Below are positions 5,794 through 11,327 of a DNA stretch of 64,000 nucleotides, one piece after another. The translations under genes were made by a program, and so were the position numbers. The notes below the pieces were generated by a model that was not told the origin of the DNA, searched no databases, and was given only the letters and a program-made list of their open reading frames with translations. The DNA comes from an uncultured Paracoccaceae bacterium (GTDB lineage Bacteria > Pseudomonadota > Alphaproteobacteria > Rhodobacterales > Rhodobacteraceae). Within the stretch, counting starts at the first letter, position 1; every line of letters begins with the position of its first letter. The stretch is taken from contig CANNFE010000001.1 in assembly GCA_947503775.1 (NCBI GenBank), forward strand, positions 434,001 to 498,000, in the 5' to 3' direction.

Positions 5794-7593
5794 ATGCCAC
5801 TCGACGACACCATCGCCCGCGTCACCGACCGGATCCGCGAACGCTCGCGCGACACTCGCACGGCCTACCTCTCCAACATGGCCCGCGCCGCCGAGGACGG
5901 CCCCCGCCGCGCGCATCTGAGCTGTGGCAACCAGGCCCATGCCTATGCCGCGATGGGCGAGGACAAGGACGCGCTCACCGGCACCGCGCCTAATATCGGC
6001 ATCATCACGGCCTACAACGACATGCTCAGCGCCCACCAACCCTTCGCCACCTATCCCGACCAGATCAAGGAGGCCGCCCGCGCAGCCGGGGCTACCGCCC
6101 AGGTCGCGGGCGGCGTGCCCGCCATGTGCGACGGCGTCACGCAAGGCCAGACTGGCATGGAGCTCTCCCTCTTCTCCCGCGACGTCATCGCGCTGGCCGC
6201 AGGCGTGGGCCTCTCGCACAACACCTTCGACGCCGCGCTCTATCTCGGCGTCTGCGACAAGATCGTCCCGGGTCTCATCATCGCCGCCGCCACCTTCGGA
6301 TACATCCCCGGCCTCTTCGTGCCCGCCGGTCCCATGACCTCGGGTCTGCCCAACGACCAAAAGGCCAAGGTCCGCCAGCAGTTCGCCGCCGGAGAGATCG
6401 GCCGCGACAAGCTGATGGAGGCCGAGATGGCCTCCTATCACGGCCCCGGCACCTGCACCTTCTACGGCACCGCCAATACCAATCAGATGCTCATGGAGTT
6501 CATGGGCCTCCACCTGCCCGGCGCCAGCTTCGTCAATCCCGGCACACCGCTGCGTGATGCGCTGACCAAGGCCGCTACCGAGCGTGCCGCCGAGATCACG
6601 GCGCTCGGCAACGCCTACACCCCCGTCAGCGAGGTCCTCGACGAGAAAGCCTTCGTCAACGGCCTCGTGGGCCTCATGGCCACCGGGGGCTCCACGAACC
6701 TTGTCATCCACCTGCCCGCCATGGCCCGCGCCGCCGGCATCCACATCACGCTCGAGGATTTCTCCGACATCTCCGAAGCCGTCCCGCAGATGGCCAAGGT
6801 CTATCCGAACGGCCTTGCCGACGTGAACCACTTTCACGCCGCCGGCGGGCTGGCCTACATGATCGGCAACCTGCTCAAATCGGGCCTTCTGCATGAGGAC
6901 GTCCGCACCGCGGCCGGCGACGGCCTCGAGCTCTACACGCAAGAGCCCAAGCTCGACGGAGACACCCTCACCTACGGCCCCGGCCCCACGGAAAGTCAGA
7001 ACGACCGCATCCTCCGCCCCGCCTCCGACCCCTTCTCGCCGCATGGCGGGCTCACCCAGCTCAAGGGCAATCTCGGCACCGGCGTCATCAAGACCTCCGC
7101 CGTCGACCCCTCCCGCCACATCATTGAGGCGCCTGCCCGCGTCTTCCACGACCAGCACGCCGTCAAGGCCGCCTTCCAGAACGGAGAATTCACCTCCGAC
7201 ACCATCGTCGTCCTGCGCTTCCAGGGCCCTAAATCCAACGGCATGCCGGAACTGCACGCCCTGACGCCCGTCCTGTCCGTTCTGCAGGACCGAGGGCTCA
7301 AGGTTGCCCTCGTCACCGACGGCCGCATGTCGGGCGCCTCAGGGAAGGTCCCGTCCGCCATCCATGTCTGCCCCGAAGCGGCGGCGGGTGGCCCCCTCGC
7401 CTATCTCCAGGACGGAGACATCGTCCGCCTCGACGCCACCACCGGCACAATCGAAACCCACGCCGATCTGACTGCCCGCCAGCCCGCCAAACCCGACCTC
7501 AGCGGCAACGGCACCGGCGTCGGCCGCGAGCTGTTCGAGGCCTTCCGCAAGAACTGCGGCATGGCCAGCGCAGGCGCGGGGGTGGTGGTGTGA
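5794..7593 (+). CDS. edd: phosphogluconate dehydratase
   Basis: Edd dehydrates 6-phosphogluconate to KDPG in the Entner-Doudoroff pathway. The start at ATG 5794 follows CAGGAG and gives 599 residues, the normal size. It belongs to the IlvD/Edd family: iron-sulfur cluster cysteines sit in [14 protein letters not shown] and in GVCDKIVPG, and [15 protein letters not shown] and [15 protein letters not shown] are conserved family blocks. A LacI-type operator lies directly upstream. In this genome segment eda is not adjacent but about 3.1 kb downstream, with unrelated genes between them, so edd is probably transcribed alone. Confidence 0.97.
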
Positions 7594-7708
7594 AGTCAAG
7601 TGCTCAAGGTTAGAAGTTAACGTTTTGTTAATACGTATGACCGATTACTAGTTATGTTTTAGTGGTTGATTCTAAGATATTAGACTCATTTTTTTGGAAG
7701 TGCGAGCA

Positions 7709-8512
7709 TTGGAAGAGAAAGAGGCGCAAAATTTTAATATTAGAGATATTGAGCTAGCGAGGGTCGAAGCGAAGATTGAGACGATAGATAGTTTACTTTC
7801 AAGTATTCATACAAAAGAGCATAAGGGAGTGTGGACTATTGGTATTTTTGCCAGCTTATTTACTCTTATATCACTTAGCTTTAATACTTGGAATACTAGC
7901 CTCTTCGACAGCGCAATAAAAGACGCGAAAAGAGAAATAGAGGTACTCGCGGGCATACTCAAGCCTGAGTCTGCATTTGTTCATGGCCTGCAGGGCCTCG
8001 ACGATAGCAATATTTTGATGGAAGCAGTAATAATTCCATCCTCTATTGAAGGTATCAAGTATTTTACGGTTACGCTTAGCGGTACAGTGATCGTAGGTGT
8101 CGAAGGAGGTCCTGGTCGTATTCTTGGATACAGCGGAGCAACTCAAGGGCCAATAGCGCAATTCGAGACCCGAACCTTTCACGGCGAGCTATCAGAAACG
8201 CAGAAGCAAAAGAGCGAGCTAGGCAGTTTTGACACAGAGGGGCTTGAGAACGGAAGAATCGTAACGGAAACCGCACCAATTCATGTAAACATTTATCGTA
8301 GGTCCAAATTTTTTAGTTGCGGTGAGGCAGCTAAGGCGATCGACGAACTAATTTCACTAGGAAACGATGTTGGCAAAGTTGGCATTGTTCCTTTTTTCTC
8401 TGGAATAGATGAACCTTTAGAGGAACACATTTTTTTTAATGTAACTATTGTCCGGGGAGATAACCCAACCTGCGAAAAGATGTCTGCAATGGCAAAATGG
8501 AACTTTCAGTGA
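7709..8512 (+). CDS. AT-rich orphan membrane-anchored protein
   Basis: I do not recognise this protein. The frame is open from TTG 7694; I prefer TTG 7709, which has GGAAG eight bases upstream and gives 267 residues. The N-terminus (about 35 residues) is charged and probably helical or coiled (RDIELARVEAKIETIDSLLSSI), followed by one membrane segment (GIFASLFTLISLSF) and a roughly 200-residue domain with two cysteines (SKFFSCGEA, NPTCEKM). Two 60-base lines counted by hand inside the gene are 35% G+C, against 72% in the last line of edd. Codon choice is clearly foreign. It sits between edd and eda, so it probably arrived by horizontal transfer. No integrase or repeat was seen around it. Confidence 0.6.
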   Translation: MEEKEAQNFNIRDIELARVEAKIETIDSLLSSIHTKEHKGVWTIGIFASLFTLISLSFNTWNTSLFDSAIKDAKREIEVLAGILKPESAFVHGLQGLDDSNILMEAVIIPSSIEGIKYFTVTLSGTVIVGVEGGPGRILGYSGATQGPIAQFETRTFHGELSETQKQKSELGSFDTEGLENGRIVTETAPIHVNIYRRSKFFSCGEAAKAIDELISLGNDVGKVGIVPFFSGIDEPLEEHIFFNVTIVRGDNPTCEKMSAMAKWNFQ

Positions 8513-8724
8513 TGACGTTGCTTCTCCTCAACAACCATATGGTGGGTGATTTCACCCATCATTCAAATCCACCACAGATCGCGGGACAGACCGGTCCACA
8601 CACACTTAAGCCTCTTTGACGTCCCGGACCTGACCCCGGATCTCTCTCTTACCACACGCGGACCCATTGCAACTGTCTCCACCAAACCCTACCCCCCCAC
8701 CCCCACTTCGGCTAAACCACCTCC

Positions 8725-9330
8725 ATGCCCACCTTCCTCACCTCCGAAGCCGACCTCGTCGCCCTCTACGGCACGCCGAAACCCGCCTCAACGGTCAAGG
8801 TCGCCCGCCACCTCACCCCAGAATACCGCGCCTGGATCGAAGCCGCGCCGTTCTGCGCTCTGGCCACTGTCGGGCCCGAGGGGACCGATTGCTCCCCGCG
8901 CGGCGATGATGGTGCTGTCGTGCAGATCGTCGGCGACACCACGCTCGCCCTGCCCGACCGGCGCGGCAACGACCGGCTCGACACGCTGCGCAACATCATC
9001 CGCGATCCGCGCCTGTCGCTGATGTTCCTCGTCCCAGGCTCGGCCACCGTGATCCGCATCAACGGCACCGGCCGCATCGCCGCCGATCCCGAGACGCTCG
9101 CCCGCTTCGCCGTTCAGGGCGCAGAGCCGCGCAGCGTTCTCTTCATCGAGATCCGCGAGGTCTATTTCCAATGCGCCCGCGCCGTTCTGCGCGCAGGCCT
9201 CTGGACCGGGCAAGACGCACCGGACCTGCCCAGCCCGGGAGAGATCCTGTCCACCATGAGCGAAGGAGAGGTCGGCGGCCCCGCCTATGACGCAGCCTGG
9301 CCTGCCCGCGCCGCCAAGACGATGTGGTAG
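8725..9330 (+). CDS. PPOX-type FMN-dependent flavoprotein
   Basis: This 201-residue protein belongs to the pyridoxamine 5'-phosphate oxidase-like split-barrel family, in the subgroup called MSMEG_1061 family. Supporting stretches are APFCALATVGPEGTDCSPRGD near residue 40, then DRRGNDRLDTLRNIIRDPRLSLMFLVPG, and the late IEIREVYFQCARAVLRAGLW. The pattern fits flavin-binding oxidoreductases acting on small molecules; the physiological substrate is unknown. Base composition has returned to the GC-rich genome norm, in contrast to the gene upstream. No strong ribosome-binding site precedes ATG 8725, but the family N-terminus fits this start. Confidence 0.85.
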   Translation: MPTFLTSEADLVALYGTPKPASTVKVARHLTPEYRAWIEAAPFCALATVGPEGTDCSPRGDDGAVVQIVGDTTLALPDRRGNDRLDTLRNIIRDPRLSLMFLVPGSATVIRINGTGRIAADPETLARFAVQGAEPRSVLFIEIREVYFQCARAVLRAGLWTGQDAPDLPSPGEILSTMSEGEVGGPAYDAAWPARAAKTMW

Positions 9331-9490: not shown

Positions 9491-9778
9491 ATGCGCCGCA
9501 CGCCCCTCTTTATCCTTCTGGCGTCCATCCTCATCGCAGGCTGCACCCCGATGCCCGCCGACCGCACGGTGGTCCAGGGCGCCGGACCGGACGAGTTGCT
9601 CAAGCTCCGGGCCGGCCCCGGCCTTGGTCACCGCGTCATCCTGGGCTTGCCCGACGGAACCTCGCTCAACCGCCGCGACTGCGTCACCGAGGTCGGCCAA
9701 CTCTGGTGCCGCGTCTCCCTCACCGACGCCCCGAGGATCACCGGCTACGTCTCCGCCGACTATCTGTCGACGCGCTAA
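9491..9778 (+). CDS. small SH3-domain lipoprotein
   Basis: This 95-residue protein has a lipoprotein signal peptide with lipobox LIAGC (cysteine at residue 18), so it should be lipid-anchored. After a short linker comes a bacterial SH3 domain: LLKLRAGPGLGHRVILGLPDGTSL, then WCRVSL, then GYVSADYL, the classic SH3b pattern that often binds peptidoglycan or protein partners. It starts at ATG 9491 with AAGGTC upstream. It has no obvious operon partner. Confidence 0.8.
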   Translation: MRRTPLFILLASILIAGCTPMPADRTVVQGAGPDELLKLRAGPGLGHRVILGLPDGTSLNRRDCVTEVGQLWCRVSLTDAPRITGYVSADYLSTR

Positions 9779-9896
9779 CCGTGTTTTGTCCTCGCTGAGC
9801 GCAAAGAGCTGCGAACGGACCAGAAGGAACGATCGCCTCAACCTGCCCTTTTGAGCCAGTTGCGCAGGCCCGCCGTCCAGACGAGCCGGGCCGAGG

Positions 9897-10061
9897 TCAG
9901 TTCGACGGACAGGACCCCGGCGTCGGAGGCTCGGATTGAGGTGTCATTCCCCCGCGGGACATCTCCGCAAAGTACTCCATCGCAGCTGGGATCGGCCCAT
10001 AGCGTTCGATATATTCAGATAGTAGCCTTTCAAGCTGCTCAAGCCGTCCCGGTCCAGTCAC
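9897..10061 (-). CDS. possible small ORF (54 residues), unrecognised
   Basis: This is the C-terminal part of a longer minus-strand track ORF whose N-terminal part looks noncoding. From GTG 10061, with GAGG nine bases upstream, it reads VTGPGRLEQLERLLSEYI, then ERYGPIPAAMEYFAEMSRGG. The first half looks like an amphipathic helix with plausible protein composition. No family is recognised and no neighbour suggests a role. It could be chance. Confidence 0.25.
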   Translation of the reverse strand: MTGPGRLEQLERLLSEYIERYGPIPAAMEYFAEMSRGGMTPQSEPPTPGSCPSN

Positions 10062-10384
10062 GTCCAACGTCCTCGTAGAGATTGATTTAACAGACCTTAC
10101 ACTTGCTAAAATTTGAGAGACATTGATCAGTTTCGATTTTCTTGAATGGACTGATCGAACGTCGATGGATGATTTATGTACCATACGATCCTTGCATTGG
10201 CCTTGGATCACAGCAGCGGAGGCTCCGCGAAACACCCCCGGATTGCGCTCGCTGCGCCGCACCGCCGACAAAAACTGCGCATGTCGACTGCGCCCGCCGA
10301 GCGACCGCCATCCATGGTCGCCCAACCGACATCGCCAAGATCAAGCGGTCATCCCCCCGGGCCACAAGATCGCTTTACCTGACG

Positions 10385-10561
10385 CATAAGCGCCGACTTA
10401 TGGGACAGCAGAGCGAGAATTTCAGAAATATCGATAATCCCACCGCATATCCAACATTGTCACTATATTCGGGAAAATCCGCATCGTGCGCTTCGTTAAC
10501 CACGGGATCGGTGCGATTTGCCTCCTCCCATATGCCGACGGAATGCCGCCCGGATGCCGAC
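10385..10561 (-). repeat. copy A of a repeated intergenic element
   Basis: On the minus strand the element has a 19-mer GTCGGCATCCGGGCGGCAT (10543-10561), then GGGAGGAGGCAA (10518-10529), then the palindrome CATAAG-N6-CTTATG (10385-10402). The same three blocks occur in the same order at 33718-33850, with different spacing. The plus strand of the middle block reads CCTCCTCCC, an anti-Shine-Dalgarno-like sequence. Confidence 0.6.
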
Positions 10562-10658
10562 AGCCTGATTTTCCCGATGCCGCGGCGTTAACCGTCATGT
10601 CGCTCCCCGGCTAAGCGTCGATGCGTCTTGCCCTTCCATCTGGCAGCCAATCCGTTAC

Positions 10659-10672
10659 GTCTAGCGATAAAA
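10659..10672. promoter_or_regulatory. weak LacI-type operator upstream of eda
   Basis: GTCTAGCGATAAAA keeps the TAGCG-TAA core of the palindrome found before edd and fbaB. It lies 14 bases before the eda start and overlaps the ribosome-binding region. The match is partial. Confidence 0.35.
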
Positions 10673-10685
10673 GAAGGAGCCCCCG

Positions 10686-11327
10686 ATGACCCCGGACGAC
10701 ATGAGCAACGCCACCGAAGAGCTATGCCGGAAGGCCCCGGTCATCCCGGTTCTGATCGTCGAAAAAGTCAGTGATGCCAGACCCTTGGCCGAGGCTCTCG
10801 TCGCTGGCGGCCTGCCCTGTCTTGAGGTTACGTTGCGCACCGATGCCGCTCTGGAGGTTATCGCCGAGATGGCGCAAGTGGCGGGCGGACAGGTCGGCGC
10901 AGGAACGCTCCTGACCCCGCAAGACGTTGAAAACGCAAAGAAAGCGGGCGCGACCTTCGGCGTCTCTCCCGGCGCGACAGACCGGATCCTCGATGCAGCC
11001 CAGGCCAATGACCTGCCCCTCCTGCCGGGCGCTGCAACCGCAACCGAGGCCATGCAACTCCTTGAAAAGGGTTACAGAATCCAGAAATTCTTCCCCGCCG
11101 AAGCCAATGGAGGCGCCCCGGCCCTCAAGGCGCTCTCATCTCCGCTTCCGCAGATCCGCTTTTGCCCGACCGGCGGCGTCAGCCTGGCCAATGCGCCCGA
11201 TTATCTGGGGCTCTCCAACACGCTTTGCGTCGGCGGAAGCTGGGTCGCACCCGGCAAAGCGGTTGAGGCAAAGGATTGGAAAGAAATAGAAAATCTGGCC
11301 CAAGAGGCCGTCACTCGCCTGTCCTAG
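10686..11327 (+). CDS. eda: KDPG aldolase (2-keto-3-deoxy-6-phosphogluconate aldolase)
   Basis: Eda cleaves KDPG to pyruvate and glyceraldehyde 3-phosphate, the second step specific to the Entner-Doudoroff pathway. The protein is 213 residues, the usual size. The active-site landmarks are present: CLEVTLRT (catalytic glutamate), VGAGTLL, FGVSPGATD, RIQKFFPAEA (Schiff-base lysine), FCPTGGV and CVGGSWV (phosphate binding). ATG 10686 has AAGGAG upstream; ATG 10701 is a weaker alternative. It works with edd but is transcribed from its own region. Its 3' end overlaps the convergent small gene by 17 bases. Confidence 0.96.
   Translation: MTPDDMSNATEELCRKAPVIPVLIVEKVSDARPLAEALVAGGLPCLEVTLRTDAALEVIAEMAQVAGGQVGAGTLLTPQDVENAKKAGATFGVSPGATDRILDAAQANDLPLLPGAATATEAMQLLEKGYRIQKFFPAEANGGAPALKALSSPLPQIRFCPTGGVSLANAPDYLGLSNTLCVGGSWVAPGKAVEAKDWKEIENLAQEAVTRLS

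Follow-up and report, generated by a model that had tools for sequence, protein, structure and literature searches.

A compositionally foreign reading frame directly downstream of edd, probably acquired by lateral transfer

An orphan reading frame of foreign base composition separates edd from a PNPOx-like gene in the 64-kb window, the whole stretch of Rhodobacteraceae DNA analysed here. The reading that we favour is that it is a laterally acquired ORFan that came with about 1.1 kb of foreign sequence; its product would be an envelope protein with a single membrane pass. The features of the locus are collected in Table 1; in the window, edd and the PNPOx-like gene lie 1131 bp apart.

Table 1. 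Features of the edd-eda interval and its flanks (window coordinates)
Feature	Position	Strand	Evidence or remarks
edd, phosphogluconate dehydratase (left flank)	5794-7593	+	TIGR01196, E=7.8e-280, above cut-off
AT-rich leader, edd stop to orphan start	7594-7708	+	~36% G+C locally
Orphan ORF, 267 aa	7709-8512	+	Open frame significant against shuffles
Non-coding spacer	8513-8724		Absent in relatives with an empty joint; 57.5% G+C over 8546-8724
10-bp hairpin, ATGGTGGGTG/CACCCATCAT	8538-8563	+	~26 bases past the orphan stop codon; without T-run
PNPOx-like gene (right flank)	8725-9330	+	PF01243, E=4.3e-18
SH3-domain gene	9491-9778		
eda, KDPG aldolase	10686-11327	+	PF01081, E=2.7e-66; TIGR01182

Base composition sets the orphan apart from its surroundings. 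The initial annotation had described a long orphan frame with strongly deviating G+C right after edd, and this is confirmed: the ORF has 42.7% G+C, whereas edd reaches 68% and the window averages 63.4%. The lowest value, 35.5%, is found at 7600-7799, and G+C stays at 35.5-36.5% across 7600-7899. At third codon positions the G+C fraction of the orphan is 0.39, far from every neighbour measured, most of which fall at 0.67-0.90. As a background, 224 kb of the same contig was used, in which 819-bp windows have a mean G+C of 63.3% with a standard deviation of 3.2 points; nowhere else in these 224 kb does G+C fall under 50% over 600 bp.

Hydropathy predicts one transmembrane helix in the product, at residues 40-58 (mean 1.78; about 40-60), which bears out the single membrane helix proposed at the outset. 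The N-terminus (residues 1-38) is charged and helix-prone, and the C-terminal domain (~85-267, ~180 residues) is acidic, with a pI of about 4.9, and contains Cys204 and Cys255. Lysines just before the helix and an aspartate just after it suggest an N-in/C-out topology. Structure prediction, which the initial annotation had named as a way to place the domain, was carried out with AlphaFold on the single sequence without an alignment; two runs returned pLDDT values of only 32 and 31. As these gave no trustworthy model, we infer the domain boundaries and the topology from the features of the sequence.

Searches of the orphan against Pfam, NCBIfam, PHROGs and PADLOC profiles returned no credible match, in agreement with the earlier impression that its domain fits no known family, and the same was true of PDB sequences; Rfam gave no match. 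The best PDB alignment, over 76 residues with E=0.005, was to the N-terminal cupredoxin domain of multicopper oxidases (6xiz, 6z0j). The likeness is marginal and lies around GYSGATQGP/GYNGSILGP, but where the oxidase has HWH in the alignment the orphan has FDT, so that the copper-binding HxH is missing, and the Pfam Cu-oxidase models did not match even at E up to 10. An assignment as a multicopper oxidase was rejected, and the alignment was taken as a chance match, because it has neither HxH nor Pfam support.

No relative was found among plasmids, phages and viral contigs; the plasmid and phage matches, with E of 0.8 or worse, fell within an iron ABC permease and within an RNA polymerase and were attributed to chance. 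A peptide-pattern scan of an 85k-species genome collection, which reaches close relatives only, was also negative. The orphan occurs once in its own genome, with no further copy of its DNA there, and is absent from 396 other genomes of the family (397 including its own). No orthologue was detected in 385 genomes of the class or in 399 of the phylum, and none in two other classes of the phylum, represented by 78 genomes (a small class, centred on G516) and 321 genomes (centred on G411). These genome samples overlap and together cover well over 1,000 genomes; these collections are samples, and nr could hold relatives. Weak genome matches with E of 0.007-0.08 (L002-L012, L033) were scored again, and the stronger ones among them were inspected. 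These are partial and local, fall in unrelated or non-coding frames, and lack the architecture of the orphan, and the matches were dismissed as chance.

At the orphan locus itself, no transposase or transposon, integrase, terminal repeat or target-site duplication of note was found, and there is no tRNA nearby. A RYYYAAC/GTTRRRY pair, as expected of an attC site after the stop codon, is absent at 7560-8760, which argues against an integron gene cassette. This agrees with the initial view that no mobile element flanks the gene. Ten neighbouring proteins had no match to PADLOC models, and all that Pfam recognised among them belong to the usual stock of a chromosome: TRAP transporter parts, a VWA protein, an outer-membrane barrel and an arginyl-tRNA-protein transferase.

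These results bear on the suggestion, made in the initial annotation, that the orphan is phage-derived or defence-related cargo. As such it could be a superinfection exclusion gene or a membrane effector. Prophage morons and defence effectors often look like this, as AT-rich ORFans that stand alone and encode a membrane helix; the orphan shares this look, and nothing that we found contradicts such an identity. The suggestion is nevertheless unsupported, because neither a mobility element nor a phage or defence neighbour was found, and PHROGs, PADLOC and the phage, plasmid and viral-contig collections yielded no counterpart; the surroundings, too, are those of an ordinary chromosome. We regard it as unlikely.

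The same locus was compared in 80 edd loci from public named genomes, mostly of Rhodobacteraceae (Roseivivax, Loktanella, Salipiger, Harenicola). The orphan is present in none of the 80, and in most of them eda lies directly 3′ of edd. L053 and L074, together with L014 from the genome search, have a different order, in which edd is followed after ~30 bp by a PNPOx-like gene and then by eda. The very short joints suggest that edd-PNPOx-eda is an operon variant present in a few Rhodobacteraceae. Because the joint that holds the orphan here measures only about 30 bp in these relatives, the comparison identifies about 1.1 kb, comprising the orphan, its leader and the spacer, as sequence gained between edd and the PNPOx-like gene. 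The edd-eda gap appears to tolerate insertions generally, since L044, L046 and L063 carry unrelated genes of normal G+C in it. Separately, facing copies of sequences like CCTCCGGCGGGGATATTT ... AAATATCCCCGCCGGAGG were seen by eye in the edd-eda gap of L036, L058, L060 and L064, as a recurring palindromic intergenic element.

Composition, the ~30-bp joint, the 80 edd loci without the orphan and its absence from the family genomes thus support the initial description of a foreign orphan inserted next to edd, and no orthologue with normal codon use was found in GC-rich Rhodobacterales, either at the 80 edd loci or among the 397 family genomes. The same evidence weighs on a native origin, in which the orphan would be an old or fast-evolving gene of its genus, with unsampled relatives and an AT-rich composition produced by relaxed or peculiar selection. 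The genus is represented by a single genome, this one, which leaves room for such a gene. Against it stand a GC3 unlike that of any neighbour measured, the lack of a trace in the 396 other family genomes and the short joint in relatives, and we consider a native origin rather improbable.

The initial annotation had also held that the orphan disrupts the usual closeness of edd and eda. It does lie in the gap, but it does not account for their separation alone, because the interval also contains the PNPOx-like gene, the SH3-domain gene and, between the latter and eda (9779-10685), ~0.9 kb with little coding content. A second, milder dip in G+C, to 46.5%, occurs at 9961-10220. By tblastx, a short ORF on the minus strand (9897-10325) is weakly similar to DNA of Pseudooceanicola marinus (L054:15514-15689, E=1.6e-4).

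The limits of the gene itself had initially been placed at 7594-8540, so that they extended over the leader and into the spacer; the ORF instead runs from 7709, or from 7694, to 8512. The open frame spans 278 codons, longer than the longest frame in any of 1000 dinucleotide shuffles of the region (mean 83, maximum 186). Its likeliest start is the TTG at 7709, which is preceded at a distance of 8 nt by GGAAG (7696-7700) and yields 267 codons, and a second TTG at 7694 is an alternative. G+C by codon position is 0.50/0.39/0.39 in the orphan and 0.67/0.49/0.88 in edd. On the grounds of length and codon-position composition the frame is read as coding, and the segment as a whole is real, probably coding, and compositionally foreign. 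A promoter scan found no sigma-70-like promoter upstream, and the hairpin downstream is a candidate for either a weak terminator or a palindrome.

A decaying or non-coding foreign fragment, with the ORF as a leftover or unexpressed, would be consistent with the lack of an ATG start and of a strong promoter, and with the attachment of non-coding DNA of 57.5% G+C. This is very unlikely in view of a frame that far exceeds those of the shuffles, the dependence of its G+C on codon position and the plausible Shine-Dalgarno sequence before the TTG. An assembly or binning artefact, in the form of a chimeric contig, is scarcely credible for a locus that is embedded in a 633-kb contig and flanked on either side by host sequence, in an assembly that is 99.27% complete and 0.13% contaminated.

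Taken together, these data argue for lateral acquisition, an origin that we infer from composition and phyletic absence, since no donor or relative was found. About 1.1 kb of foreign DNA with one gene would have entered between edd and the PNPOx-like gene, from a donor of lower G+C and by a recombination event that left no recognisable signature. The product would be a 267-residue inner-membrane protein with a single pass, held by one signal-anchor helix. Its short charged helix is likely to lie on the cytoplasmic side and its domain of ~180 residues in the periplasm, where Cys204 and Cys255 could pair. Its biochemical action is not derivable by homology. Architecture alone permits a tentative guess, namely that it is an accessory protein tethered to the envelope, with a periplasmic or surface role in, for example, exclusion or stress. 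It is a long shot that the orphan represents a novel single-pass envelope protein family, for example of phage-exclusion factors, whose genes travel as lone mobile cargo and enter chromosomes without a recognisable mobility element.

As a kind, the orphan is ordinary. Like other AT-rich ORFans, or taxonomically restricted genes, it is a single gene with G+C below that of its host and without detectable homologues, confined to one lineage and set amid housekeeping genes; it differs in being, at 267 aa, longer than many of them, and in that no link to phages could be demonstrated. Its deviating composition, the absence of homologues in the sampled collections and the empty site in relatives are those of a laterally acquired AT-rich ORFan. 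It would matter more only with a function shown, in defence, exclusion or envelope stress, for a protein that fits no known family; as it stands, the locus adds one clean, well-bounded example of a foreign ORFan for which the empty site can be measured.
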